Below are positions 455 through 64,000 of a DNA stretch of 64,000 nucleotides, piece after piece; positions within the stretch are counted from its first letter, which is position 1; each line of letters begins with the position of its first letter. Source of the DNA: Owenia fusiformis (taxonomy: Eukaryota; Annelida; Polychaeta; Sabellida; Oweniidae); NCBI GenBank assembly GCA_903813345.2, contig CAIIXF020000004.1, forward strand, positions 20,990,477-21,054,476, read 5' to 3'. The position numbers were made by a program, and so were the translations under genes. The notes beneath the pieces are model-generated. The model saw nothing but the letters and a program-made list of their open reading frames with translations. It was not told the origin of the DNA and searched no databases.

Positions 455-6758
<6,304 letters not shown>

Positions 6759-7745
6759 ATACACTAGAGGACTATAAATCTGTGGACTAAAATTTTTAAT
6801 TAGAACTGTATTATGGAAATGATATTCGGTGCTGAGGCTCAACATGAAGTGGACTTCCTGAGAGGGGAGTCTGAATACCAGGACGTAAAATCCTTGAAAA
6901 CTGGGTATTACCAGGGAACATTTCTGGTATTTAGATGCGCATAATTTGAAGGGTTGAAGCCTGCAAAGCAAGGAGTGCACGAGCTAAAAAACTTAAATTC
7001 CTGGTATTGATAAACCAGTGGAATAAAATATGCAGTAGAAAAGAGACAACAATTCCTGATGGTGATATACAAAGGAAGATTTGTTTTAACATTAAATGAT
7101 ATGGCTGAATAGAAGATATTTTCTCCTTTGTGAATGGAGAATTTAAACTCATTCAAGCATGTGAAGTGAAAAATGAAAATCCACTCGCATGCATTGAGCA
7201 AGTAGTTGGCTCTCCTTTTCAGAAAATGAAAGATTATGTATTAAATCCTGTTTAAGTGGAACACCTTTGGTTCCTGAAAATAGTGTTTCGCTTTGGAGGG
7301 ATTTCACTCGCAGAAGTTCATTCTATATTATTGTGATAGGATAATGGGACTTGGAAAAATGTTCCACTTATGCAGGCATTCTACTTAAAGAGGTGTTCTA
7401 CTTTTACAGGTTTTATTCCATATGCTTATGGCATTTCAGTCTGGAGATGCCATTGGTATTTGGCTTAAAATCCAAAAATTCAGCTGAACAAGAGAGTTAT
7501 TGGAAATGTAACCTTTTTATGAGATGTACAAAGTACACTGAGTCTAGTCTAGTGCACAGGCCTTAGAAAACAACCAGTCCACTGAAGTGATTGGAGCTAT
7601 TTTCTACGACTATGCATAAGACTACACTTTTAATTTTGAAAAAATCAACAAATATATATATTTTATGTATAAAGTGTAAATAAAAGATTAGTCAGAAGCA
7701 CTGTCATGACTGTGCTCCATGATGATTGTAGACATTTCAAATAAA
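6759..7745 (+). other. POLR2A 3' UTR region with polyadenylation signals
   Basis: Non-coding sequence after the POLR2A stop. Candidate AATAAA hexamers lie at 7679-7684 and 7740-7745. A TIR element (7243-7416) lies inside this stretch. The exact cleavage site cannot be seen. Confidence 0.6.
7243..7416. mobile_element. Short TIR element, copy 2 of 3
   Basis: Ends AATCCTGTTTAAGTGGAACA and, inverted, AAACCTGTAAAAGTAGAACA. These arms match each other over about 24 bp with few mismatches and match the copies at 3095 and 35325. It sits in the 3' flank of POLR2A. Confidence 0.65.
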
Positions 7746-34500: not shown

Positions 34501-37500
34501 AAATACATTTAGGACTCAAGTCAACTTAATACTCACTTATAAGTATAAACCCCCTTAACTGGTACATCCTCATATTCCATAGTACAGCAAGTAGTGATTG
34601 ACCAGTCACCATAATACTCACTTATAAGCATCAACTGCCTTAACCGGCACATCCTCATATCCCATAGGGCAGAAGTTGTAATTGACAAAATACATTTAGG
34701 ACTCAAGTCAACTTAATACTCACTTATAAGCATCAACAGCCTTAACCGGCACATCCTCATATCCCATAGGGCAGAAGTAATGGTTCTGGCAGTGGTAAAT
34801 AAAGGCAATGTCATCCTGCTTTAAACTCTTCTTTAACTTAAGTAAAGCCTCATCTGATGACACCCCATATGTTTTATTCCTTCCCATTGGTTTGTAGAAG
34901 AAATGGCTGCTTCCACGGACACCATAATGATCATTTAGTTTCTTAAACCATCTGAAATATCACAATATGCTTTATAATGTAAAAATTGACTCAACTTTCC
35001 TAAGGACATTTCAAAAGTGATGTCCTTACTGTTATTAGGATTGTAGAAGAAATAACTGATTTCATAATCATCATTCTCTTCTTTAAATTATCTGGAATGC
35101 CAGAATACACTTTTATAGTTCCCATTTGAAAACTCGCTCACTGCTGATCTAATACAATGAAAGGACTGAGTAAATGTATAACATACACCCAGAAGTCTAA
35201 CATTATCCCAGAGTTGCATTTCTCAACATTGCTGTTGATAACCACAGAAGTTCCGTTAACATGCGAAGGTCAACTGTTCAGTTCAGTTATATAGAAATCC
35301 TTATGAACTTATGAACAGTAAAACCTGTTCAATCTGAATGCCATTGGGAATGGCCAAAGGTGTCCAGATTGGCAATTGTTCACATCCCAAGGTTTTTTGA
35401 AATTAGACGTTTTTATGGGAGATTAAAAAATGGGTCAAAAAAGTGTTCACATTGAAGTGTTCAAATTCGAGAGGTGTACAGATTAGAGAGGTGTTCATAT
35501 ATGCTGGTTTTACATTAATGGATCTGATGAAGTAAATAAGTGAGTAAATCATGCTACAAAATCCCCTACCTCATAAGAGTAGCATTTCCAGTGAAAGGGC
35601 CAAAGCGAATTTCCTCAAATGGTGGTTTAAAATCCAGTATTGTAAGAGCTTCTTCCTGTGTGATTGGCTTCAATGTACCAGCGCCTGTTAGATGAAAAAA
35701 GTGGAATCAGCATGGAATGAAGTAAACAGAATGCTTTAGATTATATAGAAATATAGCTCAGAGGTAATTTAGTAATTTAATTGCTCCACAATCCTGGAGA
35801 GTGAAGACACATGTAAGTTGTACTATATAAATACTAAATAGTGAATTTTTTAGTTTGTGAAGTCAATGATTTGAATTACAGTTTATATAGAAATATCACT
35901 CAGATGGTATTTCATTATACAGGGTGTCTATAACATAAAGTCTCGTTCCAATTTAAAAAATTAAATACGAAGGCAATTGATAAGATATCATAATCAGACT
36001 TGTTCTATTGTACTCAGTGGTTTTCAAAATTTTTCTACAATCCTTGTGAGTAAAAATACTAGTTTCAGATAAAACACATGATGAGTTTCCCAAGGAATAA
36101 CTAGACACACAAGTACACAGCATGAAGATTATAAGACACACAAGTACACGTGACTAACCAAGGGTTGAGAAGAGGTAGTTCCAGCAAGACACTAATGAAG
36201 ATATTCCACAAGATTTCTTGTACTGCGGTCTGCTGATACAGAACCTGCAAGGAAGAACAATATTTCATGATTCAAATGTTATTATTAACATACAGAGGGC
36301 GTCATTTACACAAAAAAATAATGTCTGAGGGTACTTTGGAACACTTCTTCTGCTCAACAATAAACAATGCAATCAAAATGTCTTAAATATAATTATGGAA
36401 AGGATAGGGGAAAAACCCAAGATGTACAATCAATATCAACATTATAAGTGAGTGCCTTTTGATTTTAAAACAATTAATAACTCTTCAACTATTTTTTTCA
36501 GGTGAGATCATTGGTGCAACATTAAAACACAGAGCTTTTCTATGAGACTAAAATTATGTAACAAAGATGGTCAAGGAAAGGAAGGGGGTTAAAACTGACT
36601 CAGAAATAGGGAGAGGGTTATCACTGAAATGCATATTTGCTCTTGGGGATTAATCATTCAATTTAATTGTAACTTTACATAAGACCATCCATGTCACTTC
36701 ACACCTCTAGGAAACCAACTGTAATAAAGATAAGTACTTTGAGCTAGTGGGTTTCCTGGAGTGGTCGGAGGTCTCCCCTTGCTTTGAACCCATGTTTTTA
36801 TTGTATATTCGATTATTTATCCATTTGGCCCAGTGCCAGTTGGCTTTATGCCCAGTTGGCCTGGTGCCAGTTGGCTATTTGCCAACCTGGCTCTTTGCCA
36901 AAAACAGGCTGTATATAAATAAGAATTGTGTAGCCTCAGTGAAGTTGATTTTAGAGTTGATTAGAGACAGTGTGATTTTGCAGAGTAAGATTCAGTTGTT
37001 GAGTTTTAGAGTATAATCAGTCGGTTACAACCAGGAAATTACTTAGGACATGTAAAGTTATATTAATCAATGAACAATAAAAGAAATAGAAATCAAACTA
37101 ACATTTTATGTTACTGCCACTAGACGACACGAGCCACAACATTATATTTTATGACAATAATTTGTTACATTGGTGCCGTTGCCAGGATTTTATAGATATA
37201 TTTTCTTAAAAACGAATCTGGGAGCCTTCTGTTAGAAAGTGAACACAACTCAAGAAATGGAGGACTCGGTTATCAATACTAGGATTACCGAATTAGGAAC
37301 TAAAATAAAAGTATTAACTGAAAATGAAACCAAAGAATTGAAGGAAGCAAATGACCTATTTGAAGAATTGTACGAATTTCCTAAACAGCAGAGGATTAGG
37401 TATAACAGTATGGCCGAGGAAATCAACAGGCTGAAGATGAACAATCAGAAAATAAGAAAGTGTAATGAGCATTTCCAGAAGAGCAAACAAATTGGTATGG

Positions 37501-40500: not shown

Positions 40501-42504
40501 TTTTTTAATTAATTAGGATGCTCAAGGTCAGTCAATGGTATTGAATAATTATATTATAATGTTGGGAATTTAAGTTTGCATTTAGTGGTATAGTTTGGTC
40601 AATTGATCCACTGTTGTTTATTTTTAAGTACATAAGTATATTTATAACAGCAAGTATACTGCATTATATACCTTATTTTATTTGGGACAAATAATTACAA
40701 AGTAGGGGGAGAATGTAACAAAGATGGTCAAGGAAAGGAAGGGGGTTAAAACTGACTCAGAAATAGGGAGAGGGTTATCACTGAAATGCATATTTGCTCT
40801 TGGGGATTAATCATTCAATTTAATTGTAACTTTACATAAGACCATCCATGTCACTTCACACCTCTAGGAAACCAACTGTAATAAAGATAAGTACTTTGAG
40901 CTAGTGGGTTTCCTGGAGTGGTCGGAGGTCTCCCCTTGCTTTGAACCCATGTTTTTATTGTATATTCGATTATTTATCCATTTGGCCCAGTGCCAGTTGG
41001 CTTTATGCCCAGTTGGCCTGGTGCCAGTTGGCTATTTGCCAACCTGGCTCTTTGCCAAAAACAGGCTGTATATAAATAAGAATTGTGTAGCCTCAGTGAA
41101 GTTGATTTTAGAGTTGATTAGAGACAGTGTGATTTTGCAGAGTAAGATTCAGTTGTTGAGTTTTAGAGTATAATCAGTCGGTTACAACCAGGAAATTACT
41201 TAGGACATGTAAAGTTATATTAATCAATGAACAATAAAAGAAATAGAAATCAAACTAACATTTTATGTTACTGCCACTAGACGACACGAGCCACAACATT
41301 ATATTTTATGACAATAATTTGTTACAATTAATCTTACCACCGTTTCATATCCAGCACCTTGCGTTGAGACATAGTTTCTATGGTAGCCGAGCATGATGGA
41401 ATGTTTGGGTCTGTTTCCACGGCAACTGTTTCAGACTCTTCTTCAAGTTTCTTAGCAGATCTCCTTGGAGATTTCAACTTGGGCATCCCTGAAATTTTTT
41501 ATGTTAATATTCACTTTTGATCGAGAGAAATGTTGTTACTGCATTCTGTAAATTTTGTTACACACTTTCTACTAAATTCTGCCTTCTTTTTGTTACTGAG
41601 TTGTCAGTCTTTTACATTTTTTGATGTAGAATACTTCAAATGGGAATGTGTAAAATCATACATAAAATTAATAAATAGCAGTGCTTTCATTGAAATGTAG
41701 TCTATTCATAACTGTAACACTGCATACTAGTAGGCTATATATTTGCAATATGAAAGCAGTGATTTATGCAAAGCAGTGATTTATGCAAGCTCCAAGATTG
41801 ACCCCTATGGCCTCTAAAGAACCCCCCCCCCCCGCCGCAATAATGCAACTGAGACTCTGTCTCACTGGTTATTGTTATACCTAGTTTGAGTTTAGGTTTT
41901 GATCGTTTAGGTTTGTTAAAGTCTGAGGTGTCGACGTCCCAGACCAGTGGCTCCTCCTTTTCATCTTCCTGTAAACTACTGCCTGGTCGGGAATCTTCTT
42001 GGAACACACCATCATCAGCTGCAATTTAAAAATATGATAATGTCAAGTTTGTGATAAAACTCACTGAAAAAATACAAAAGCAAACCAATGTTTGCTTTCT
42101 TCTAAAATTTTGGATGTATGTACATTGCATACGAGATTTACCATTTTTCCTCGAAAATGTGACCTTCTATGATTTTATGTGATCAACAATAACACATTTA
42201 TAATGTTGACTAAATCTGCTACAGTCTTGGTGATGGAGGGGGAAGCAGGCAATTTCTGCAAGAAAATTGAACAAATCAGAATGATTTATTTTGTCAAGAG
42301 AATGTTACACATACCAGTTATTTCTACATCTTCAAGGGCTGCGTGTTGACCTACATCTCCAGCCTGACCAGGGGTGTGTTCTTCTGGTGTAACAGCCTGG
42401 TTCTTCCCTTTACTGCTGTTTTCCTCCACATTAGAGCTCTCCACTTCATCTTCTTCATCTTGCAAGATTGTAGAGGATTGCTGTCCAGACTGGAGATTAC
42501 CCAT
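31498..42504 (-). CDS. BIVM: Basic immunoglobulin-like variable motif-containing protein
   Basis: Eight coding exons, 5' to 3' on the minus strand: 42504-42315, 42018-41881, 41488-41338, 36244-36159, 35684-35570, 34951-34724, 32782-32699 and 31870-31498. They join in one frame to 454 aa; human BIVM is about 503 aa. The conserved core is unmistakable: [90 protein letters not shown] and [12 protein letters not shown]. The N-terminus is acidic and diverged, and the C-terminus is Ser/Asp-rich. The biochemical role of BIVM is poorly defined. An antisense LTR element fills most of the 5.1-kb intron after the third coding exon. Two exon boundaries carry tandem duplications (separate entries). A 5' UTR splice acceptor (TTTTCAG) lies 8 bases upstream of the ATG. 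Confidence 0.94.
32894..33959 (+). mobile_element. hAT element relic with C-terminal transposase fragment
   Basis: Ends TAGAGGTCACAACGGTA and TACCGTCAGCCTCTA, with a perfect 8-bp target duplication ATTTATAC at 32886-32893 and 33960-33967, diagnostic of hAT. The interior keeps a decayed fragment resembling the hAT C-terminal dimerisation region ([20 protein letters not shown] at about 33256-33315), directly followed by a 57-bp tandem repeat. Most of the transposase is missing. It lies in a BIVM intron, opposite in sense to BIVM. Confidence 0.88.
33359..33700 (+). repeat. 57-bp in-frame repeat, 6 copies ([19 protein letters not shown])
   Basis: Six 57-bp units in frame with the hAT C-terminal fragment, encoding a 19-aa Thr/Glu/Pro-rich repeat. 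A seventh partial copy loses bases and frameshifts. Two frames on the minus strand are open as well, so openness by itself proves little. Confidence 0.93.
34131..34270. mobile_element. Harbinger-type MITE in BIVM intron
   Basis: Perfect ends TGCCTGGGTCACATTTGCTC / GAGCAAATGTGACCCAGGCA, with a TTA duplication at 34128-34130 and 34271-34273. The inner arms (GACCGATTGAGT / ACTCAATCGG) also pair. The 3-bp TTA TSD suggests PIF/Harbinger. Confidence 0.88.
34429..34790 (-). repeat. Four tandem copies of a BIVM exon end plus splice donor
   Basis: Units start at about 34429, 34532, 34617 and 34719 (spacing 103, 85 and 102 bp). Each copies the last ~60 nt of the exon ending at 34724 together with the 5' splice site (TATAA|GTGAGTATT) and following intron. 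The unit at 34719-34790 belongs to the intact exon. The leftmost copy has diverged most (GTAAGTGAC). Reading through the true donor gives TAT-AAG-TGA, so downstream donors would add a stop. Confidence 0.9.
35325..35513. mobile_element. Short TIR element, copy 3 of 3
   Basis: Starts CAGTAAAACCTGTTCAATCT and ends GGTGTTCATATATGCTGGTTTTAC, the inverse of its start with mismatches. Related to the copies at 3095 and 7243. Lies in a BIVM intron. Confidence 0.6.
36557..37169 (+). repeat. 5' LTR
   Basis: Direct repeat partner of 40714-41326. Contains short internal repeats of the TGGCCCAGTGCCAGTTGGC type just upstream of the TATA-like box at about 36910. Confidence 0.92.
37257..38258 (+). CDS. Gag-like coiled-coil protein of the LTR element
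   Basis: 333 codons from the ATG at 37257, about 90 bp after the 5' LTR. Residues 1-110 are highly charged and helical ([20 protein letters not shown] and [20 protein letters not shown]), consistent with a coiled coil. The middle is acidic and Ser-rich, and the C-terminal third is basic ([20 protein letters not shown]). I see no CCHC zinc knuckle, protease or reverse transcriptase. Position suggests a structural gag-type product that could mark or package the RNA, but sequence similarity to known gag proteins is not evident. The frame is intact, in keeping with a recent insertion. Confidence 0.65.
   Translation: MEDSVINTRITELGTKIKVLTENETKELKEANDLFEELYEFPKQQRIRYNSMAEEINRLKMNNQKIRKCNEHFQKSKQIGMEIKEYDQEVRRLRIELNATLQNNSGNAGGKAVPSSPKFESAFTRHDAKMSSEDETLNVSPSQNLLETHNAINADSDNSTVERSDTEKAGVVLLENSDTEKYDVISEENHVMQAQVQTTPVDTLYATQRGLAIMAKKTLKSFEVKNRVRVNKPRLRVYKEKRNKPSAQLSKNKHVKRLVHKAWSTTNHVTRLKLKKGANYMGDVIPITYECWSSPVETLESRMARGWHNAKNKEPNNGCEKNGCWMNVETIGL
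40714..41326 (+). repeat. 3' LTR
   Basis: Apparently identical copy of 36557-37169. Its end lies 4 bp (the ATTA duplication) from the first intronic bases, GTAAGAT, of a BIVM splice donor at 41337-41331. Confidence 0.92.
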
Positions 42505-52606: not shown

Positions 52607-54984
52607 ATATACAAGTTGAACATATTCAAGTGATTCTTATTTACATTTCATTTCAAATAAGTTATACCATGGTCAGAGGAATATCAGACAGTGCACTGTC
52701 AGGTATATAACTGTATAACAGCAAGTGATAATTTACATGATATTTGGGATTTTGATGATATCGGCGATGATATTAGATCGGAGGGATGATATGAATATCC
52801 ACCCGGGTATATATTGCACCATAGCACTAACGTCATAGGACTGAGTTATGGACATTTCTTTCGAGTATATCAGTATGAGGGAGAAAATACTTTTGAATAT
52901 AAATTCTTCCTTGGTGATATACTTTCATCCCAAGAATTTTTACGCTGCAATCACCGACGCCGGCACACTCCAATAAGTTTTAAGACACTCTACCATAATT
53001 TCCGATGTTGAGAGATGGATTATTGTTGCTGTGACTTTTCACGATGTCGTGGCGATACTTAGCGAGATACTTAGCCCATCGCGAAGGCAGACAGCAATTT
53101 TCGTTACAGTTAAATGACAGCTATCATGGGTTGATATCGAAAAAGTTGTCCACTGTGACGGAGCATGCTATTTTTCATGAAACATTAAGAAAACTTCACA
53201 ATTTATATTTTAATTCATTTGTTTCGTTACCAAACAAAATTCGCTCCTCTAAAGTGTAGTTGCAAAAGCTTTATATAAATCTTCAATTCCAATGTATTTC
53301 ACATATTTTAACGTCGCGAGATTTTCATTACAACTTAAGCTGTACACTAATCACAGTTTTAATGGCAGTATTTGACATATTTTTGACATGTTACCGTGGA
53401 GGATCGGCTTTTGTCTTCTTTTGCGATATTTTCAGTCTATAGTATAGACATTACGTTGACGTTTACTTGACAGTTTGATTAATGTCCTTTGTTTCAAAAC
53501 AATCTAAAACATCTGAACTCACCGAAGTGATAATTATTTGGTTGTTTTTAATATTTTGTTGTGTAATAAGAGTGAAACACACTTAATTAATGTTGAAGCG
53601 TAAAAAGGCGGTCTTATTTTGCATTGCATCACTGAACTAGGTAATCTTCAAATTTCTTTGATTCTCTTATTGAAAGCCCATGATATCATAAATTAGGGAC
53701 CATTTTGACCTTATATCCCAATCAGACAGTTTATACTCGATTAGTATGCTTATTTCCTAATTAAACAGTCTTCACCACAAACCACACAACATATGATATC
53801 ACATATATTATAGGATTAAATTCGAGCCAGCATCCCGCGTTTATTTGAATAGCATCAAGTACATCTGATACAAAGAATGAGTGAAAAAATGAAAAAATAT
53901 AGCCAGGTCGCGATGCATCCAGGTACCTATGACGGCCACGATGCCGATGTCATAACGGCCACGATGCCGATGTCATAGCGGCCACGATGCCGATGGCATT
54001 AATGCCAGAAACCTCTTAGGTTCAAATATACCCAACATCCGTCCTCGGCTCCCAACCTCACTGCTGATTTACGATGTTTAACTGCCTTCAAGACATCAAT
54101 AAGGCACCGTGTGCCTAATTAAAAATCTAAATCCAACAACCCATCCATATCCGGATCAACTGTCATTAAAGCCATTGTTTGTTAACACGTCAAAGATCTC
54201 AAATTAATTCACAAATTTCGGAATAATTAAACCAATTCTAAATTGTGACTATCTGTCAACTTGCACTATAAAAAAACTTGTATAAGGACCGTACACGTAT
54301 TTAGTGCCTTCTAGCACTATGCAAAATCTGTAACATACCTCACTATCTAATACAGTAAATGTTGTTAAGAGTAGTAAATCATACAGTGTGACCCGGGGTG
54401 ACCCCTGATGCATTCTGGGAGTTTTTCAGGGGTCCACGCTGATTGGGCAGTTTAAACCACGCGCCTACGCTCTGATTTGTCGAGTTTGACCACGTAACCG
54501 ACCTTATTAATCACTGTTGAACTAGGTTAATTAAAGTCGATGGTTGACCGCTAAAAAGACGTTTAACCTTGAAAGCCTGTACCGTCGGTACAGGCTCTGG
54601 TAATTTGATACGGAATATTGACAGCCGATGAAGTAAAATTAATAAAAACGCGTCAGTCGTTGACTGGTAATCGATAATAGGTAAGACCGTACCCGCCGGT
54701 ACAGGCTCGAGTAATTTCTTACATGTTGTGGCACGTGGGGCGTGACTTAAATAATAAGGTCGTCTCGTTAATTACTTTAACGGCGAAGGCGAAACGGCCG
54801 TCAATCGATAATCTAGCTTCAGTATTGTGAATAGGTTAATTAATAATCGAGAAAGTCTTTAAACGGATATATTGATAAATAAAAGTTTACTTAGGGCAAA
54901 AAGTAGATTCCCTGTTTTGTTCCCCTCGCTTTCACAATGGGATCAATTACATCTTGAAAATTTTTTTTTGGGTAGGGGGAATTT
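52607..54984. other. No gene recognised
   Basis: Short open stretches only (52814-53442), none with a recognisable domain. At about 54580-54720 a motif GTACCGTCGGTACAGGCTC recurs as GTACCCGCCGGTACAGGCTC about 110 bp apart. GC content looks higher from 54400 to 54800 than around it. Confidence 0.45.
53932..54000. repeat. 23-bp tandem repeat, 3 copies
   Basis: Three units of ACGGCCACGATGCCGATGTC plus ATA, more GC-rich than the surrounding DNA. Confidence 0.92.
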
Positions 54985-55490
54985 GAATATTTATATTTAC
55001 AAGTATAGCCTCGCAAAAAATCTTATTTTTCATTGTTCACTTATTTCAACATCCCGAGTCCATATACGACTATATAATGTCAGAACATTACATATTTATC
55101 CAACAATCTCTTTTACCCTCGCAAAAATTTTCAATTTCATTATTCATTTTTCACTTATTATCTTAAGTCCACATAAAGAATAAAAGATATAAGCCCACTT
55201 CATTTTTGTCAAAAAATGTTTACCTTACAAAAATTTTCATTTTTTTTCATTTTTACTTATTTCGACATCCCAAGACAGTATACATACTACAACATGTCAA
55301 AACACTTCATTTTTGTCAAACGTTTTACCTTTACAAAAATTTTCAATTCATTTTATTCATTTTCACTTATTTCAGCAGCCCAAGTCTGTATAAAGACTAA
55401 AATGTGTTAGCACGCTTCATTTGTATCCAAAAATGTTTACCCTTACAAAAATTTTCATTTTTTTCATTTTTACTTATTTCGACATCCTAT
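54985..55490. repeat. ~105-111 bp tandem repeat, about 5 copies
   Basis: Units recur at about 55011, 55120, 55225, 55331 and 55442, each with (A/T)CGCAAAAATTTTCA or TTACAAAAATTTTCA followed by TTTTTACTTATTTCGACATC. It ends about 150 bp before the small membrane-protein gene. Confidence 0.85.
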
Positions 55491-55638
55491 GAAGAAAAAA
55501 GTGAAGCTGATAGCTGTAGCGAATGTAGTTATTTCGACCCCGTGGATTTTGGAAGCCATAGTTAAATCTCACAGTAGAAATAAAGATATATATACGTCAA
55601 TGTAAGTAATATAGTCATTTATACCTAGGTTTTTGAAC

Positions 55639-56018
55639 ATGATAGGTCAATTATTAGTTTTGAGCGTTATTGTAACATGCTGCATTTGTCAAAACATCAA
55701 TGTTACTCGACACTTTAATGGAACTGAAAACGTAACACCTTATTACGTACTGAAACCATATATTAACAGTTACGATGTAAATCTAGAGACTCCAATGGCC
55801 TTAAGCTTTACCGGAGGTGTTTTAACTTTTGTTATCATAGGTGAGTTACGCGATTTTTGACAAACTATAATATACCATAATGTTTGGCTTATATTTAATA
55901 GTGGTAACTAATGCTATATCATTTTTTAGGTAATGTGTTATGGCTTAGAATGTTAACGAGATCCAAATTACCGATGGTTAAGGATGAAAGACAAAGGGTG
56001 CCTATGATAGCCATATAA
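55639..56018 (+). CDS. Small type I membrane protein, 96 aa
   Basis: Two exons, 55639-55840 and 55930-56018, joined across an 89-bp GT..AG intron in frame. The ATG at 55639 opens a hydrophobic signal peptide (MIGQLLVLSVIVTCCICQ). A short ectodomain follows with N-glycosylation sites (NVT, NGT, NVT). A second hydrophobic stretch, ALSFTGGVLTFVIIGNVLWL, spans the splice junction and would cross the membrane, leaving a short basic cytoplasmic tail. I do not recognise the family. Signal peptide, splice signals and frame agree, but the small size leaves some doubt. Confidence 0.55.
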
Positions 56019-56682
56019 AATTCATACAATGTGTACAAAAGATATACGACAAATAAATAAGAATGTATTAAACTACAAGATCTTGTAGATCAGAAAATCC
56101 CTTAATTTGTTTGTTTATTGTTCTTTAATTGTTTAAAACTTAGTGAAACATAATAAATCCTTAGGATTATTCGATGTAAGTTTATTAATTCCAAAGTTTC
56201 AACATTTGTACAAAATCATTAATTACAGACCTACACAAAGTTGCAATGTCATCTACTTAGAAACACGTGTATATTCGATTAGGGTGACATCTTCAAATAT
56301 TAAAATACTCTGTACGATGCTGACATCTAGTGGTAGTTGGATATCACTACATTGATACAAATATATAACATTTATCGAGTATACATATTCAATAATTGTT
56401 TAACATTAAACACCGTTGGAATGTAATCATATGATATTGTTTACACGTGTATTGCAATTTAACATTGAAATTGCGAACCTCGATTGAGTAAATTAGCATT
56501 TGAGGCTTTTTGAACACCGCATCAATGAGGATTTAAATCGACCTCTTTAAGAAAACTTTAAGACAACTATGTTGTTTTATTTGAAAATTACATGCAGAAT
56601 TTAAAAAAACCATCAAATAGAATAAATTCTGGTCTTGAATGGTAATATGCAGATCTCCTAAGATCTTTTTTAAATACCTTTC
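56019..56682. other. No gene recognised
   Basis: Between the small membrane-protein gene and the viral-type gene cluster. One boundary of the mobile cluster should lie here or just beyond, but no terminal inverted repeat or target duplication could be identified. Confidence 0.45.
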
Positions 56683-56892
56683 CTAGATTTCAATACTGTT
56701 AAGCGATTCCTTAATTAAAACATAAATACAAAGTGAACCGAGAAAGTTGGGAAGATCACATGAATTACATGAGTTTAATTGATTTATATCGGTCAAATTA
56801 AATACAATGGTAAATAAGACAGCTATAATTAAGTAGGCAAAGTCTGTATTTAGTCCAACAAACAAGTTTACGCCTACAGGGGTGATATTCAT
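56683..56892 (-). CDS. Possible small membrane protein at the 3' end of the viral-type cluster
   Basis: 69-codon frame on the same strand and 33 bp downstream of the last accessory ORF. It has one strong hydrophobic stretch (FAYLIIAVLFTIVFNLTD). Position favours membership of the cluster; there is no family match, and it may be chance. Confidence 0.3.
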   Translation of the reverse strand: MNITPVGVNLFVGLNTDFAYLIIAVLFTIVFNLTDINQLNSCNSCDLPNFLGSLCIYVLIKESLNSIEI

Positions 56893-56925
56893 ATCATTGT
56901 ATTCAAATATGTCCTAATAGAGTGT

Positions 56926-57366
56926 TTAAAATGGCAGCCATTTTGCTTTGTTTTTACGAGGTCTCTTAAGAGCTTTGGCTGAAATACCCGGTACTTTGTA
57001 CGATGTGGCGCTTCTTTTGTAAATGAACCTAGGTGTATTATCGGTATAGCTAGGCATCCCTATTGCATCATCATCATCACTGGTTGATAGTCCCGCGTCA
57101 TCATTTTGTTTACTCGAGGTACCTCCCTTAAAGTCGCTATCGGATGGGGCATCCAATTTATTTTCCGAGGAAAACGTAGATGCATCATTACCCCCGGAAT
57201 CAACGTGCTTCGTATGACTAGGTTTACGTGTACCTATTCCACCATCCATTTTATCAGTATTAGTTGGTGTCTGATCTATGGTTTTGTTATTACCCTCCTC
57301 AGTTTTACGCGTGGAATTTTCGAGTCTGATATATTTATCATAAGGTATCAAAACAGATTTGATCAT
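56926..57366 (-). CDS. Accessory protein of the viral-type cluster, 146 aa
   Basis: Begins MIKSVLIPYDKYIRLE, continues as a low-complexity Ser/Thr/Asp-rich stretch, and ends in a short basic motif (ALKRPRKNKAKWLPF) after a Pro-Gly. Its ATG overlaps the stop of the upstream 107-aa frame (ATGA), suggesting coupled translation. Small proteins with an N-terminal PYDKY-like block and a basic Trp-containing tail are, from memory, common neighbours of this capsid family in animal genomes, but no function is known to me. A disordered virion or DNA-binding protein is an inference. Confidence 0.7.
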   Translation of the reverse strand: MIKSVLIPYDKYIRLENSTRKTEEGNNKTIDQTPTNTDKMDGGIGTRKPSHTKHVDSGGNDASTFSSENKLDAPSDSDFKGGTSSKQNDDAGLSTSDDDDAIGMPSYTDNTPRFIYKRSATSYKVPGISAKALKRPRKNKAKWLPF

Positions 57367-57686
57367 AGCTTCAGTTTTTGGATAAAATTATGAACGGATT
57401 TAATCAATAGACCCAAAACTGATGTATTACGTTTAATCAAGTCCTTTCTAAACTTTTTGCTTTTGGATTTTGTCGCGATGTGTTGTAAAACTATTCTATG
57501 TCGTTTCAATTTTTGTTTATAAAAATTCGCGATAGGGAGACTACCGTGAAGTACGTTAAGAGCTATTTCACCTAGAACTCGAAGTTGCGTTTCCGTAATT
57601 GTATTCAATAAAACTTTCATTTGTTGCAAAGTACTAGTCAAAAGGAATTTTAGGAAGTTTTTATTCCGTTTAATAAGTGCTGACAT
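57363..57686 (-). CDS. Small basic helical protein of the viral-type cluster, 107 aa
   Basis: Lys/Arg-rich throughout and predicted largely helical (NFLKFLLTSTLQQMKVLLNT, then GEIALNVLHGSLPI), with a basic middle (KQKLKRHRIVLQHIATKSKS) and an amphipathic C-terminal helix (LGLLIKSVHNFIQKLKL). It lies between the ATPase gene and the 146-aa frame, overlapping the latter by four bases. A basic protein with an amphipathic tail recalls small adenoviral core or membrane-active virion proteins in style only; no homology is claimed. Confidence 0.7.
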   Translation of the reverse strand: MSALIKRNKNFLKFLLTSTLQQMKVLLNTITETQLRVLGEIALNVLHGSLPIANFYKQKLKRHRIVLQHIATKSKSKKFRKDLIKRNTSVLGLLIKSVHNFIQKLKL

Positions 57687-57745
57687 CGTGACATGTCTTT
57701 TATATGTTGTCCGATAACCGTCTGGATCTATACTGACGCGTTCAA

Positions 57746-58417
57746 TTAACTTTTGGGTTTATAAATGATAGGGTCTTCATTCGGAAATATACGCGTGCGT
57801 AATCTATATTCATCAACGCCATCTGGCGACATATCAACGACTATGTAACCGTACCTTTCCGAAGTGGCGTCCAAATAGCTGTCCATGAAATATTTCGTTT
57901 TATCCGGATATATTTGACCAGCCAAACACTTTAGTTGTCTTTTATCACGATTTGCCTTGAAAATGATGAAATACTGCGTATTTAATGAAATATTTCTAGC
58001 GCTAGGACCCTGACACAAGGCGTTTTGTGTTAGAAAAAGGACATTCATATTTCTATGATGACATAATTGCGTGAATATTTTGGCGGCCTCTCTACTTTGA
58101 CATACGCTAGCCATTAAATCATCTAGAACTAGAAATGTTGGTATCGATATATCTTTCGTAAAATTTAAGATTTCTTCCTCGTCGACTAGTCCTTCGTGAA
58201 ATATGATTTCATCTTTAAATTGTAGCTCCATATCGCGGTACAGGGATTGCCAAGTTGCGTAACAAAACAATATTTTGGAAGGTGAATTCGAACTATTTTG
58301 AAACAAGGCATCTCTATGTTTTAGAATTTTGAAACACATGTTAGTTTTCCCCGATTGAGACGCTCCTATCATGGCGATAGAGGTAGGCGAATTAAAGGGC
58401 ACCAGGCTATGTGTCAT
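57746..58417 (-). CDS. A32/FtsK-HerA-type DNA-packaging ATPase
   Basis: 223 aa. Walker A is GASQSGKT (residues 18-25) and Walker B is the hydrophobic run FLVLDDLM. A polar sensor-type segment (VLFLTQNALCQG) follows, then the ISLNTQYFIIFKANRDKRQ block, which is characteristic of the packaging ATPases of Polintons and related double-jelly-roll viruses. It would pump genomic DNA into preformed capsids. The frame is intact and of usual family length. It follows the protease gene after a 183-bp gap, the largest within the late part of the cluster, which might hold a promoter or RNA-processing site. Confidence 0.9.
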   Translation of the reverse strand: MTHSLVPFNSPTSIAMIGASQSGKTNMCFKILKHRDALFQNSSNSPSKILFCYATWQSLYRDMELQFKDEIIFHEGLVDEEEILNFTKDISIPTFLVLDDLMASVCQSREAAKIFTQLCHHRNMNVLFLTQNALCQGPSARNISLNTQYFIIFKANRDKRQLKCLAGQIYPDKTKYFMDSYLDATSERYGYIVVDMSPDGVDEYRLRTRIFPNEDPIIYKPKS

Positions 58418-58600
58418 GGCTTCGACGTTTGACCTTACAATGATAAATACTTGTTTTGCGAAGTCTTTTATTTAAACAATCGGTCTATTGATGATTTTTA
58501 ATAAGTTAGTACCAAAGAACAAATATAATTTTTTACCTAATCCATTTTATTTCGATACACAATAGTATAACATACATAGAATATAAACAATTATATCTAA

Positions 58601-59140
58601 TTAACTTTCTAAAGCCTGAATATTCGGTTTAACGCAGGTTTGGCATTCTACATAAGTCACTGCGGATTTGGTAGAAAAGTGAGTCTTGAAATAATCTATG
58701 GTGATTAAATCGTTGTAATAAGTATCCTCGATATTATAGTCATTCAATATACCCAGTAAGCTTTCATTTCTACGAATATAACGATCCATTACAACTAATG
58801 CATATTGGCCACAGATTGTACTTTCATCATCTTGAAGTCTCAAGTTATTGTATATAAATGTATCCGAATTATTTCGTATGAATTCAAATAGACCATATTT
58901 TCGGGGATGACCACCCAAACTGTCAAAATACATACAAGTTTTCTGACCCAACGTGTCAATCTTGAATACGAGTAAGACCCAATGTAATCCGGGGTGATCG
59001 TGCTTGGCCGTATTGACGATATAAACGGCTAATTTACTCGGAGAAAACCGCGGTAATTCGTCTTTGGCGCAGACCCTACGGTAGGCGGTTTTTAAATAAG
59101 ATGTAGATTCTAATATATGCCTTAATTGGAGAGAGTTCAT
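58601..59140 (-). CDS. Adenain-type (C5) maturation cysteine protease
   Basis: 179 aa. The adenovirus-protease arrangement is visible: His53 in GLHWVLLVFK, Asp73 in YFDSLGGHP, and Cys110 in STICGQYALVVMD, preceded by Gln103 in the oxyanion region. Such proteases cleave capsid precursors during virion maturation. The start codon overlaps the stop of the capsid gene as TAATG, so translation by re-initiation is plausible. The catalytic residues and length are normal for Polinton proteases, and no frameshift is seen. Confidence 0.9.
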   Translation of the reverse strand: MNSLQLRHILESTSYLKTAYRRVCAKDELPRFSPSKLAVYIVNTAKHDHPGLHWVLLVFKIDTLGQKTCMYFDSLGGHPRKYGLFEFIRNNSDTFIYNNLRLQDDESTICGQYALVVMDRYIRRNESLLGILNDYNIEDTYYNDLITIDYFKTHFSTKSAVTYVECQTCVKPNIQALES

Positions 59141-60465
59141 TATGTTATGACGTTCCTAGCCTCGTCTATCTGAATAACTTTGGGAAACTCCGCCAATATT
59201 AGGATGTTGATCGCTTCTTGCAGAGGTTTTTGAAAATGACCATTGATGGATAAATTACCCCTTCTTTCGATCGAATTAACTTGCGTACTACCGATGTTAT
59301 TGACGTCAAATCTTAAAATTGTAGTTCCGTTGGCCAATTCGTCTCTGGATATGCTCGCGTTTCGTTTTTGGTCGTTAAACTGGGGAAATAAGTTGTTGTA
59401 ACACGTTATATACTTGTTCAGCAAACCACCTGTTCTGTAATCTAATGTTACGGGATTGGTCACGCTTAGTCCATCGACTAACACGTCTAGATAATCTAAG
59501 TTGAAATGTTGAAAGTTGAAAGGATTCAAATCGTACACGCCCATTTGAGATCGAGCCGTGACCATGACTAGGTATATCGTTTGAGGCACCCTACCTAGAA
59601 ATAAATTATCGATTTGAAAATTGCGGTTTCCGGTGGCCACACTTAAACTTTTCATTTCTCTGCCGATGTACGGATATTGAGCCAGATTCGTCTTTAACGT
59701 TTGGGCGTGACCTTCCAATACACCGGGTGTCGGCTCAATTTTGGCAATTCTTAGAAATGCGTCGGTAATCTTAACCTTATAAGCTACGTCGTTATCATGA
59801 GCCGTTAGGTTAAAGGCAGCCGGGGATGGTGTTAGTTTGACTTGAATATCAATGTTATTCAACAAATATTTTTCAATCTTAAAGATGTCAGCGTGCAATG
59901 GACCCGCCATTTCAACCTCCAAACTCTCGATCGTGTGCGCCATTCTCCTCAGAAATCCATTATTTTTGGAGTCAAACCCGTTATGGTCGTTACCTAGACT
60001 GGCTTCATCCTTAAAATACATTTGGGATGATAAGTAACCTTGCATATCTGCCGCTGATGTGTTTAGTACTGTTTGAATATAACTTGTGTACGGGTAATAA
60101 GGTCCCGATGTTGACATTGATTTTTGCTGCATTTGAACATCCACTTGCGAGAATAATGAATGTAACCAAAGATTAGCGCAAGTAACTTTGGGTGCAGATG
60201 CCCCCGGGTCGTTTGGATCTATAGGCAATGGACTCCCATCGGGCATGGTTATTTTTGCCTTGACGAATAACACTGTTTTACTCAAATCTAAGTAGTGATC
60301 TCCGTTATTTGTTATATCGAAGGTTAATGGATTACCATCTGATAAATTGATCGGTCTAAAATTGACGTATTTCAACTGTTTCGTGCTGACATCTGTGTCG
60401 CGGGATTCGAAAATCATAAACTGCTCGTTCACAACCTCGCTAGAACTATCCATAATGTTATCCAT
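59140..60465 (-). CDS. Major capsid protein candidate (F54H12.2-like family)
   Basis: 441 aa, no introns. It resembles the family often labelled uncharacterized protein F54H12.2-like in invertebrate genomes: an N-terminal YVNFRPINLSDGNPLTFDI block, a LDLSKTVLFVKAKI strand, NLWLHSLFSQVDVQMQQKS, YPYTSYIQTVLNTS, and later NPFNFQHFNLDYLDVLVDG. The alternating beta pattern, length and place between a basic protein and the protease fit a double-jelly-roll major capsid protein. That assignment is inferred from context and family recall; structure prediction would settle it. The ATG lies 2 bp after the stop of the preceding basic-protein frame. Confidence 0.8.
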   Translation of the reverse strand: MDNIMDSSSEVVNEQFMIFESRDTDVSTKQLKYVNFRPINLSDGNPLTFDITNNGDHYLDLSKTVLFVKAKITMPDGSPLPIDPNDPGASAPKVTCANLWLHSLFSQVDVQMQQKSMSTSGPYYPYTSYIQTVLNTSAADMQGYLSSQMYFKDEASLGNDHNGFDSKNNGFLRRMAHTIESLEVEMAGPLHADIFKIEKYLLNNIDIQVKLTPSPAAFNLTAHDNDVAYKVKITDAFLRIAKIEPTPGVLEGHAQTLKTNLAQYPYIGREMKSLSVATGNRNFQIDNLFLGRVPQTIYLVMVTARSQMGVYDLNPFNFQHFNLDYLDVLVDGLSVTNPVTLDYRTGGLLNKYITCYNNLFPQFNDQKRNASISRDELANGTTILRFDVNNIGSTQVNSIERRGNLSINGHFQKPLQEAINILILAEFPKVIQIDEARNVIT

Positions 60466-60467
60466 TT

Positions 60468-60851
60468 TTATTTATTTGTTTTTGTTTTATCTGTTTTTCC
60501 CTTTTTATCAAATATGGTACTTATACCGAGCGTATTATTTTCACGTTTATCACGTTTTTTCTTTAATACGGTGTTACTCCCTTCGATACCTTTGGTACGT
60601 GTGGTCTTATTTTTAAATACGGAAGGTTTTATAGATTTAATCCGGGGACCTGTATCTATGATGTTATCACGACGCATGCGCAACCTGGCTCTTTGAACGC
60701 TGGCCTCAGAGGGTGATATCATCGTTACAGAGGTTCCACTTCCGGTTTGATTGGTACCGCCGCTTTTCAAAGGAACGTAATGAGCCTTGTTAACTTTAAT
60801 TTTAACCATTTTTTTCTTTGGTTTTGAGAACAGATCTGTCCAGATATCCAT
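60468..60851 (-). CDS. Basic protein upstream of the capsid gene, 127 aa
   Basis: Highly basic (SKPKKKMVKIKVNKAHYVPL near the start; KKKRDKRENN and KKGKTDKTKTNK near the end), Ser/Thr-rich and probably disordered. The frame ends 2 bp before the capsid ATG. A nucleic-acid-binding core or scaffolding role is a reasonable guess from charge and position, but I recognise no family. Confidence 0.65.
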   Translation of the reverse strand: MDIWTDLFSKPKKKMVKIKVNKAHYVPLKSGGTNQTGSGTSVTMISPSEASVQRARLRMRRDNIIDTGPRIKSIKPSVFKNKTTRTKGIEGSNTVLKKKRDKRENNTLGISTIFDKKGKTDKTKTNK

Positions 60852-60887
60852 ACCCTTTGTATAAGCTTAGATTGGCGAAAAGTTTAC

Positions 60888-61313
60888 TCAAATATGTAAT
60901 CTCTTTTTAAAATGTAAAACGCAGGTTGTGGGGCTATTATTCGTAAATTCCACGGGTGAACCGTCCTGATAAGTCAAAGCAATACTGATCTCGTTAAAAT
61001 TATTTAGTCCTAAATCCAAGTAATATATATTTTTAAATTCACAGTATGTCTTAGATGTCGATATAGTACGTAGGATCGTCCTCGACGTTGGTCCTACTAA
61101 TGATTCGCCTATTATATTACAATATACGTATATTAATCCTTTATTTACACGTTTACCTAAACAAATTTCGGTTAAACCGCAAGTCCAGTTTTCCAATTTT
61201 TTAAACGTTTGGTAATTGGGTAGTTTACTGGTGAATTTACTCTGAGTGTTATCCTCGTAATAAATTAAGGAATCCTCGCTGGTAAGATGTGCGTACGTCT
61301 GTTTCAAACTCAT
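60888..61313 (-). CDS. Beta-rich protein, candidate minor capsid (penton-type) protein
   Basis: 141 aa, predicted almost entirely as beta strands. The segments GLIYVYCNIIGESLVGPTS, LRTISTSK and NNFNEISIALTYQDGSPVEF, then CVLHFKKRLHI, follow a pattern I associate with penton-like proteins found beside this capsid family. Penton-type proteins close the capsid vertices. It is shorter than many minor capsid proteins, so it may be only the C-terminal domain or a distinct protein. It lies just downstream of the tRNA-like gene and the integrase. Confidence 0.6.
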   Translation of the reverse strand: MSLKQTYAHLTSEDSLIYYEDNTQSKFTSKLPNYQTFKKLENWTCGLTEICLGKRVNKGLIYVYCNIIGESLVGPTSRTILRTISTSKTYCEFKNIYYLDLGLNNFNEISIALTYQDGSPVEFTNNSPTTCVLHFKKRLHI

Positions 61314-61382
61314 AACTAAATTAACCCGTATAGGTATCTTCTTAAATACTAAGGTGCGAGGTGAGTCTATCGAATATCTTTC

Positions 61383-61455
61383 GGCTCATTGACCTAGAAG
61401 TATGATTCTCAATTTGGATGTGAGAGGTCTCGGGGGTCGAATCCCGACCGGGCCT
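61383..61455 (+). tRNA. tRNA-Pro(UGG)-like gene inside the viral-type cluster
   Basis: 73 nt alignable with animal tRNA-Pro along its length (start GGCTCATTGACCTAGAAGTA, anticodon arm CTCAATTTGGATGTGAG, T arm TCGGG...CCCGA). The anticodon TGG is at 61415-61417 with T at position 33. The B box GGGTCGAATCC has one mismatch to consensus. Immediately downstream, TATTTTT is a Pol III terminator. Oddities: two acceptor-stem mismatches (positions 6-67, 7-66), one mismatch each in the D and anticodon stems, and an 8-nt T loop. It may be a diverged functional gene, a pseudogene or a tRNA-derived Pol III promoter. It lies on the strand opposite all cluster genes. Confidence 0.7.
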
Positions 61456-61493
61456 ATTTTTAAAAAAATTATTTCATTTTAATTACCGTGTCT

Positions 61494-62657
61494 TTAAATT
61501 TCAGAGATATCCTTCACATTCACCCAGGAGTTGAACTTTTTGGGCCAGAATTTCCACTTGATTAACGCTAATCTATTGTTTGGTAATCGCCCCTTATATT
61601 TAAGAATATGATCTATTTGAAATAACTGATCCGGTTTAGTGGTTACCCCATTCAACTCTTCGTTATAAAACGTTCCTTTTATGTCATCGTCGTTATAATC
61701 CATCAATTTATAAACGGGAACACCACCTCTCATATATTTACTTTTAATTTTGAATATTTCACCTGTCCAGCGTGCGTGATATTCTTTCTGAAATGGATGA
61801 CGTAATGTAGATATACGTACTAAATCGCCAGCTTTAAATTTAAAAGTAACTTTTGCTTTTCGTTTCCTCGCAACATTTTCTTTCTTGATATTTACGTTTT
61901 TAATACGTTCCCGTTGGTCACGTTGCTCTTGTCTCGTCAATTGGTCGTGCATAACTTCGTATTGGGTAGCCTCATTCACGCTAGATGGCGCTCTTCCAAT
62001 AGTTCTATGAAATGTATCGTTGTAGCCATTCACTATGTCCATTAGAACATCGACGTATCGGTTAGTTTGATTAGCAATCATATACCTATGTAACCGTGTC
62101 GCTAACGTCTTAATAACTCTCTCGACGTAATTTGACTTTTTTTCATTGAGACTGAAAATCTGGGTGATACCTAAACGTTTCAAATATGGTTTCAAGATAT
62201 TGTTGTCGAATTCTCGACCCATATCTAAGCGCAAGATGGTGGGTTGTTTAGCTGCCCCTAAATCATCCAAAATGTGTTTGAGAGCTTTAAATGTCTCCTT
62301 AGCAGTTTTCGTTTTTAAAAGTTTTGCGTGGACAAATTTGCTGAAAATATCGATTGTAATTAATATGTAACTGAAGCCATTGTTATATGATTTCAATTTG
62401 CTAAAATCGATCAGATCGGCCTCCATCATATAATGAATTCCTAATGTCTCGACAGGACTTCTTTTAAATTTTCTCCTGACGGGTTTATACATGGTATACG
62501 CTTCAACACCGTTCAAGAAATCTTTCACCATTTTTAATGTTATGTCATTTCTAAACTCTTTAATACTTTTGTGGAATTTAGATGGTGATGTAAAACTTCC
62601 ATTAAATGTAGGGTCGTAATATAGGTTACTAAGATAATCACGGACGTTCTCCGCCAT
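61494..62657 (-). CDS. Polinton-type DDE integrase with C-terminal chromodomain
   Basis: 387 aa. The N-terminus has the YYDPTFNGSF motif seen in Polinton integrases, and a KPVRRKFKRSPVET block precedes the catalytic core. The core triad is Asp81 (MEADLIDF), Asp145 (LRLDMGREF) and Glu179 (NYVERVIK), 33 residues between the last two. The C-terminal 45 residues (FQIDHILKYKGRLPNNRLAL, then WPKKFNSWVNVKDI) form a chromodomain, a targeting module of Polinton and chromovirus integrases that reads histone marks. It joins element DNA to the chromosome. The frame is complete. It is the upstream-most gene of the cluster. Confidence 0.93.
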   Translation of the reverse strand: MAENVRDYLSNLYYDPTFNGSFTSPSKFHKSIKEFRNDITLKMVKDFLNGVEAYTMYKPVRRKFKRSPVETLGIHYMMEADLIDFSKLKSYNNGFSYILITIDIFSKFVHAKLLKTKTAKETFKALKHILDDLGAAKQPTILRLDMGREFDNNILKPYLKRLGITQIFSLNEKKSNYVERVIKTLATRLHRYMIANQTNRYVDVLMDIVNGYNDTFHRTIGRAPSSVNEATQYEVMHDQLTRQEQRDQRERIKNVNIKKENVARKRKAKVTFKFKAGDLVRISTLRHPFQKEYHARWTGEIFKIKSKYMRGGVPVYKLMDYNDDDIKGTFYNEELNGVTTKPDQLFQIDHILKYKGRLPNNRLALIKWKFWPKKFNSWVNVKDISEI

Positions 62658-62869
62658 GACAAAACTAGAAATGAGTCAAGACTTATGATTTGGCTTTTTA
62701 TAAGTAAATGCTAGTGGTTCTTTAAATTTTTTTCAAAATGTGGTTGTTTTGTAACTTTGCATTTTTTGGACACCTATCTACATGTTTATTACCTCGTATA
62801 ATATGTACCATATAAGCCATACAAAATATAAAGTTAATTTACATGATCCTTTATTAAGCATAGGTTCCT

Positions 62870-63904
62870 TTAAGAATACGTATACAGTGTTATAGAATAG
62901 TCACTGGCCCTTTTTTTAATGGTCACTGAACCCACATCGTCAAATCTTAATGAGGAAATGTCTGATTCTGGTGGAGAAGGTTCACCATGTAAACCATCCT
63001 CCATGGTTCCAACGACATCACATTGACTGAACGTTTCAGAATTTTCACGTCTAACACCCCAGCTACTACCCCACCAAACATTAACTGCAAGCCATCACCG
63101 TAGATACGAGACACTTTTAGTTTGAGTTTGAATACAATGACTGAAAATATACAGAAAAACAAAAATCGTTAATAAATGTAGTTAACTAGAATTAAAATTA
63201 GTTGACCTAACATTGTCACATCTGAAAACAGCGATCATTTTATGAAAATCATCATATACCAAGCTTTTAATGGATAGTACGAGTTATGTTTAACATATGA
63301 TTAACTTATGTTAGAATAGATGTCGCATTCGTACAGCTAGTCTACGGGACTCTTAGGTTATTATACTTACACAGTGTGGAGTGTGTCACGACAAAAGAAA
63401 GAACAGCTAGAATAGCAGATGTAATGTCCCCGCCGTGCCACACGAGTTTGTTGTCACTGGCATTTGGTATCAAACGTACAATTTCCACGTCCCCAATCTG
63501 TTGCTAAATAATGAAATGATAAACAATCGAACTAAATTCCACCAACGTTATACTCATTATATTATAAGTGATATACCTCTTCAAAAAACTCCGTACAACA
63601 GTAGCTTTTAAATATAATGTAGGTAGTATGTCATAATCTAATTGATATTGAAATAAATTGGTATACTAGTAACTACTTTTTATTTGATACTGTTTTAAAT
63701 TTTTTTACTAACTCAGAGTGTTAAGTAATTTAAAGCTGTGATAATAATCAATTACAATTGTCTTGACGATGATTTAAATATTAAAATTAACTTACCACTT
63801 GATGTGTCACAATCACCAATCAATATATTATTATATACGGAACAACCGGTCTTGACAGAAACTATCATGCAGAGAACAGTAAATAGCGTAGTACACAAAG
63901 ACAT
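62870..63904 (-). CDS. Signal-peptide membrane protein gene, exon structure incomplete
   Basis: Likely exons on the minus strand: 63904-63796 (ATG, signal peptide MSLCTTLFTVLCMIVSVKTG, donor GTAAGT), 63503-63371 and 63084-62870. The last two join in frame and encode a hydrophobic membrane segment (ITSAILAVLSFVVTHSTLFN) and a short tail ending at a TAA at 62872-62870. The first exon ends in a phase that does not fit the second, so an exon is missing from my model or one boundary is wrong. An alternative acceptor for the last exon lies near 63140. No family was recognised. It converges towards the viral-type cluster. Confidence 0.4.
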
Positions 63905-64000
63905 GTTACCTAACTGTTGAGTGGACTTGATATATGATTTTTATTAACCAAAAATTGAAACCAACACACCTGGTCATTAGCGTATCTAAAAATAGATTTG

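Follow-up and report, generated by a model that had tools for sequence, protein, structure and literature searches.

There is continuing debate over the lifestyle of animal Polintons, transposon or virus. Mavericks carry terminal inverted repeats (TIRs) with (AG)3 or (AGT)2 ends, and in some vertebrate genomes all of them have a PolB, the polymerase gene, that is broken by stops or frameshifts, according to the accessible part of the source (PMC8097293). Here we describe a Polinton/Maverick derivative without PolB from the annelid Owenia fusiformis, found in a stretch of 64,000 nucleotides (contig CAIIXF020000004.1, C4:20990477-21054476) that is called the window throughout, and we argue, at a rough probability of 0.7, that it is a complete, capsid-keeping element that is replicated in trans, as a satellite, by PolB-bearing kin with the same ends. 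With the vertebrate Mavericks, as the accessible part of that paper describes them, and with a PolB-bearing Polinton on contig C8 of the same genome, the window element shares (AGT)2//(ACT)2-type ends, TIRs, a 6-bp target duplication and purifying selection, as well as an rve integrase with a (here weak) chromodomain, an adenain protease, a putative A32-type ATPase and a capsid-like gene; in the Mavericks described there PolB is fragmented, whereas in the window element it is absent. From the C8 Polinton the window element differs in lacking PolB, in its length (11.5 vs. 22 kb) and in a small spliced membrane-protein gene at the place of PolB.

Virophages and other satellites are small integrating DNA elements that encode capsids and rely on the replication of another virus, as the window element seems to do; the helper of a virophage is a giant virus, whereas the window element would find its helper within its own lineage. 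Adintoviruses and meldviruses resemble the window in having a chromodomain rve integrase next to virion genes, as set out in the available part of PMC11071296, where adintoviruses are defined by PolB (OTU-like domain) and a hexon recognizable by BLASTp; the window copy, which keeps the integrase and has no PolB, falls outside the definition given there. The same part of that paper already reports genomes with adenovirus-class virion proteins and no recognizable PolB or integrase. Polinton-like viruses and Tlr1, in the portion of PMC11071308 available, are like the window capsid-bearing and mostly without the Polinton PolB, and Tlr1 has an rve integrase; most Polinton-like viruses of that source, however, lack the rve integrase and encode other replication proteins, whereas in the window no replication gene was recognized. 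The capsid-like protein of the window belongs to the family of animal F54H12.2-like proteins, and one distant match of the integrase is named F54H12.3; these proteins are annotated as uncharacterized. Among literature titles and abstract openings, a scope outside which most subscription papers fall, we found no description of animal Polintons that lack PolB and bear integrase and capsid genes. One reference dataset discarded Polinton-like elements of <10 kb as incomplete, as stated in the accessible part of its description (PMC4028283), and compact forms may therefore have been overlooked.

Element Borders and Target Duplications

The initial annotation of the window recognized a virion and integration cluster, which is real: eight co-oriented open frames, among them those for the integrase, the protease, the ATPase and a 441-aa protein, lie between 56926 and 62657, all on the minus strand. 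The edges proposed for it, 56683..62657, do not hold, as comparison with other copies sets the ends at 54370 and 65854. The PolB-less element, delimited by this comparison, its inverted repeat and its target duplication, measures 11,485 bp (54370..64000 in the window, core genes on the minus strand), which is shorter than the ∼15–20 kb given for a typical Polinton, and its right end falls 1,854 bp beyond the window end. The left TIR, which opens with AGTAGT, occupies 54370..54774 (plus strand) and is paired with a right arm at 65450-65854. The arms are about 400 bp long and agree at 383 of the first 400 aligned positions, and in the window plus the 3,000 following bases 54365-54774 matches the inverted 65859-65450 at 95.6% identity. 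No TIR above chance was found when the window alone was searched, because the right arm sits 1.4–1.9 kb past its end. The element is flanked by a perfect 6-bp target-site duplication, GTTAAG, at 54364..54369 on the left and, past the window, at 65855-65860 on the right.

We searched the genome assembly (498 Mb in 525 contigs; all counts from genome searches are lower bounds) with the terminal repeat of the window and obtained 33 matches, which were then paired by position. This pairing gave 11,485 bp for the window element, 22,093 bp for the PolB-bearing element on C8, 8,863 bp for L022, 8,631 bp for L023 and 15,911 bp for L028 (L numbers denote loci, C numbers contigs), the last with apparently foreign DNA inside its ATPase gene. 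The terminal motif AGTAGT...ACTACT is present in the window, C8, L021, L022, L023 and L028; the left terminal repeat of L021 appears to be interrupted by an insertion. All six elements of this set whose two ends were read have perfect 6-bp duplications, the PolB-bearing C8 element included, and as L023 and L028 have one duplicated flank in common, these represent five independent sites. PolB-less forms have inserted several times independently. Fragments of the terminal repeat without a partner nearby, spanning its positions 191–360 or 191–392, were also seen at C10:31098243, C12:35944026, C11:20036754, C9:17494146 and C9:15855747, and are possibly short internal-deletion derivatives.

PolB in the Window and in Related Elements

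The absence of PolB noted in the initial annotation was confirmed: a PolB from the same genome, used as a tblastn query, gave no match (E ≤ 1) either in the window or within 3,000 bases past its end. When the PolB of C9 (1,448 aa) was compared with the window, the next 3,000 bases and the 20 fetched loci, it matched only its own end in L031; the PolB of L032 (C8) lies outside the stretch searched with this query. A genome-wide search with PF03175 yielded 11 matches and just two long open frames, of 1,485 aa at C9:25126740-25128932 and of 1,475 aa at C8:11370588-11372774. These lie ∼3.6 and 4.3 kb, respectively, from capsid genes of the window's family, which are 90% (L031, C9) and 85% (L032, C8) identical to that of the window. 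The C9 frame, of which 1,314 aa were tested, scores 143.9 bits against PF03175 and is a clear PolB. The PolB-bearing C8 element, of the length given above, has terminal repeats 95% identical to those of the window and a target duplication of its own; upstream of its PolB two similar short cysteine-rich (zinc-finger-like) frames were seen (L044 1-979, minus strand).

Copies Across the Genome

A genome search with the capsid protein returned at least 94 matches, which condense to 81 loci; of these, 20 belong to the family of the window (major capsid protein, MCP, ≥85% identical). PolB was found at two of these 20 loci and was not detected at the other 18, and PF03175 occurs within 60 kb at 3 of the 81 capsid loci, the third being a fragment on C12. 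The capsid frame is full-length and free of stops in 13 of the 20 family loci. All eight core genes are open and align over their full length in the window and in L021; in L030, L031 and L032 the core genes are open, but the alignment covers only 115–119 residues of the 127-aa frame and, for the L031 protease, 176 of 179 residues. The integrase is broken in L022 and the protease of L023 contains a stop; several further copies show stops, frame breaks or insertions. Several copies are 96–98% identical in DNA. The elements fall into size tiers of 22 kb with PolB, 8.6–11.5 kb without it, and 8 kb without PolB and integrase.

The initial annotation had taken PolB and TIRs in other copies as marks of an ordinary or truncated Polinton. 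TIRs are indeed present in the window element and in other copies, and PolB in the two loci named; the window element is a Polinton derivative, yet not a simple broken truncation. We class it as a PolB-less derivative rather than as a full member, because the defining Polinton gene is absent.

The smallest tier comprises L024, L025, L026 and L036, which lack the segment corresponding to 61507-62815 (integrase) as well as any detected PolB. They have different outermost ends (AGTAGTTA...) and four different flanks. L025 and L026, in which both ends were read, measure 7,980 bp each and are bordered by the perfect 6-bp duplications CATATA (C11) and TATTAT (C12), as identified by eye. L024, L025 and L026 have open frames for the capsid protein, protease and ATPase; those for the capsid protein and ATPase are broken in L036. 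As elements without PolB and integrase have inserted as units, these enzymes would be needed in trans.

Outside the family, L039, which belongs to a capsid family with 38% identity, has much of the same gene set, with an inverted block resembling the ATPase, 107-aa and 146-aa frames placed before the integrase; in the L039/L040 family no frame of PolB size was seen in the 10 kb read, and none matched the C9 PolB. Among the 61 divergent capsid loci (30–38% identity) PF03175 was found within 60 kb at one, as a fragment. In the PolB-bearing L032 a threonine-rich frame of 191 aa with an apparent membrane span (6964-7539, minus strand) lies between protease and ATPase, antisense to both.

Segments Flanking the Core Genes

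Between the left terminal repeat and the core genes we predict a spliced gene at 55639..56020 (plus strand; exons 55639-55840 and 55930-56020, splice sites assigned by eye), whose product has an apparent signal peptide, N-glycosylation sites and one membrane span, all judged by eye. This small membrane-protein gene occupies the position held by PolB in the PolB-bearing copies. All nine other copies with the whole gene have it open, two more have a part of it, and the remaining nine fetched loci, among them the PolB-bearing L031 and L032, show no match. The PolB-less L030 likewise has no match, in a locus that extends 730 bases beyond the last matching point (window 56171), so that the gene is missing or displaced there; the other loci without a match stop short, are broken or are of another family. 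Subterminal tandem repeats with units of ∼110 bp are found at 55000..55490, and comparable arrays occur near the integrase-side end of L029, L030, L033 and L034.

On the other side, a segment of 2.45 kb (62930-65377, minus strand; 62930..64000 in the window) is missing from eight shorter copies (L021–L026, L028 and L036). It is present at 97–98% identity in the PolB-bearing L032, and in the PolB-bearing L031 only 63951-64086 and 64261-65377 are matched, at 72–73%. The segment includes a possible spliced membrane-protein gene at about 63.1–63.9 kb, recognized by eye. Its part outside the window contains a gene for a 155-aa protein with a sole database relative, 57% identical and from Owenia fusiformis (one match among nine candidates). 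The initial annotation had regarded the genes within about 1 kb on both sides as host-like. This reading is ruled out for both flanks, as the flanking genes recur as element DNA in other copies: the left one in the copies listed above, the right one within the segment common to L032.

Selection and Module Exchange

In a first comparison set every ratio of non-synonymous to synonymous substitution rates (dN/dS) against the window copy was at most 0.21; for the ATPase, dN/dS against the window was 0.04–0.17 in seven comparisons. Selection within the PolB-less group was assessed by pooling five capsid-module genes from six copies (L021, L022, L024, L029, L030 and the window), the other PolB-less loci being excluded because they were broken, incomplete, fetched only in part or near-duplicates. 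All 15 pairs had a pooled dN/dS of 0.10–0.19, with binomial p values between 5e-3 and 7e-26. Variation is greater in single-gene pairs that have few changes, such as the ATPase of L023 vs. the window (0.31) and of L022 vs. L023 (up to 0.89) and the capsid gene of L021 vs. L022 (0.53). In the eight pairs of L029 or L030 with L021, L022, L024 or the window, 48–58 non-synonymous changes stand against 74–87 synonymous ones, far under neutrality, which indicates that the capsid genes were in use after those copies split. The capsid genes within the PolB-less group are under purifying selection.

Divergence is uneven along the element. Between the PolB-bearing C8 element and the window the synonymous divergence (dS) is 0.08 for the integrase and 1.37 for the MCP, and for L030 vs. 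the window the values are 0.78 (integrase) and 0.11 (MCP). Such unlike values show that PolB-bearing and PolB-less forms have exchanged integrase and end modules and must then once have been present in one cell.

Core Genes and Other Features of the Window

Sequence and neighborhood suggest functions for several of the eight core genes, all on the minus strand. The integrase (61494..62657, 387 aa) shows an rve domain in Pfam at E 2.9e-8, above the cut-off, and a weak C-terminal chromodomain (chromo E 0.0075, below the cut-off). In two distant relatives of the integrase, P0192 and P0207, the same predicted protein contains PF08398, which we take to be the N-terminal domain of parvovirus coat proteins. 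Next to the integrase lie a 141-aa frame (60888..61313), a candidate minor capsid protein by virtue of its closeness to the capsid gene, and a basic 127-aa frame (60468..60851) that is present in copies.

The 441-aa protein (59140..60465), of the F54H12.2-like family according to its database relatives, is probably the major capsid protein, as judged from its neighbors and its conservation. It has 429 database matches, and among the best 120 several animal proteins are named 'F54H12.2-like'. The protein itself has no Pfam match and no PDB match, and a Pfam scan of 30 aligned relatives gave five families, each in one member and weak (best E 0.052); no relatives were confirmed in viral contigs and phage records. 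The adjoining gene encodes an adenain-type cysteine protease of 179 aa (58601..59140; Peptidase_C5 E 1.4e-4), whose score of 22.1 bits passes the curated cut-off of 21.3. The putative A32/FtsK-type packaging ATPase of 223 aa (57746..58417) matches Pox_A32 at E 0.031, below the cut-off, and its Walker A (GASQSGKT) and Walker B motifs were read by eye; the relative in L039 also matches Pox_A32 below the cut-off (E 0.0058), alongside many P-loop families. The cluster is completed by frames of 107 aa (57363..57686) and 146 aa (56926..57366), both present in copies, the former also in the 38% capsid family at 30% identity.

Between the integrase and the 141-aa gene lies a degenerate sequence derived from tRNA-Pro(UGG) (61383..61454, plus strand), whole or partial in the window and in 14 of the 20 fetched loci and scored as a real tRNA only in the PolB-bearing L031. 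Its role may be that of an internal Pol III promoter or of a spacer. A scan of the window for tRNA genes and Rfam families gave none at threshold.

Elsewhere in the window, 5334-6758 (plus strand) encodes YSPTSPS heptad repeats, the typical C-terminal tail of the largest subunit of RNA polymerase II, a host gene. An identical short tandem array occurs at 36821-36891 and 40978-41048, ∼4.16 kb apart; the pair may represent the two long terminal repeats of a retroelement.

Discussion

The window element retains the terminal repeats that replication and integration require, an integrase of its own and the complete virion module, with the probable capsid protein, the 141-aa protein, the protease, the putative packaging ATPase and the accessory frames. 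We propose that, when a PolB-bearing copy is active in the same cell, its protein-primed polymerase would copy PolB-less DNA from the common ends; this DNA would be packaged in capsids and re-inserted by an rve integrase, either its own or, for the integrase-less copies, one supplied in trans. The resulting lifestyle would be that of a satellite of its own Polinton lineage, a dependence that we infer from the missing PolB, the common ends and the module exchange. Of the explanations offered by the initial annotation, the evidence favors the compact element with a borrowed polymerase: its terminal repeats and target duplication are intact without PolB, PolB-less forms have inserted several times, and a PolB-bearing relative has the same ends, the borrowing itself remaining a matter of inference. 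A different lineage of integrating virus is not supported for the window copy, which has its ends, integrase and capsid genes in common with the 22-kb PolB-bearing Polinton.

Several observations weigh against replication in trans by PolB-bearing kin as we propose it, or narrow its basis. Capsid genes are broken or partial in 7 of the 20 family loci. Terminal repeats of the PolB-bearing C9 element were not found in the stretches read, and shared ends are shown for one of the two PolB-bearing copies. PolB was counted genome-wide with PF03175, which may miss divergent PolBs. Because of L030, it is not proven that the PolB-less copies all go back to one origin, and this exception slightly lowers our confidence. 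The purifying selection could also have acted in unseen PolB-bearing relatives, the capsid module joining this backbone later; the two PolB-bearing copies in the assembly are excluded as such a source by their MCP dS of 0.73 and 1.37.

Non-autonomous forms are common among DNA transposons, and the window element could be an ordinary deletion derivative that lost PolB by chance, was moved a few times by PolB-bearing kin and has open capsid frames merely because it is young, in which case it would not live as a satellite. The several copies that are 96–98% alike in DNA and the existence of shorter, integrase-less forms agree with this, as does L030, since repeated loss of PolB would permit the lack of a match to the gene in its place. 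However, the substitution counts in the eight PolB-less pairs with L029 or L030 are far from neutral, and the spliced gene at the place of PolB is open in every other copy that has it whole, which makes this explanation unlikely. We consider it somewhat less likely still that the element is replicated by host polymerases or by another virus, independently of PolB-bearing Polintons. The scarcity of PolB near capsid loci, three within 60 kb among 81 and one of these a fragment, would fit such independence; against it stand the 95% identity of the terminal repeats of the window and C8 and the exchanged modules, and the scarcity itself may be overstated, as PF03175 may overlook divergent PolBs of other families. 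That the host captured and kept a capsid module, the third explanation of the initial annotation, would account for open frames under purifying selection. We regard it as extremely improbable for what is a multi-copy mobile element with 20 family loci, with mobile-element ends and target duplications wherever both ends of a copy were read, and with an intact integrase in the window.

A more far-reaching view can be put forward tentatively, at somewhat below even odds: that one animal Polinton lineage houses a lasting helper–satellite system, in which a PolB-less, capsid-competent branch outnumbers the PolB-bearing one (18 loci, broken ones included, vs. 2), swaps integrase and end modules with it and has spawned a spreading tier without PolB and integrase. 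That the PolB-less branch mostly carries the membrane-protein gene at the place of PolB may be part of such a system, a suggestion held with equal reserve. Unlike the usual defective elements, this branch may, on the same speculative footing, have dropped its replicase and retained its virion genes under selection.

The loss of the polymerase with capsid genes kept under selection suggests that particles matter for the spread of this branch, and the PolB-less branch suggests that Polintons can support satellites derived from themselves. With three size tiers in one species, this idea becomes testable there.

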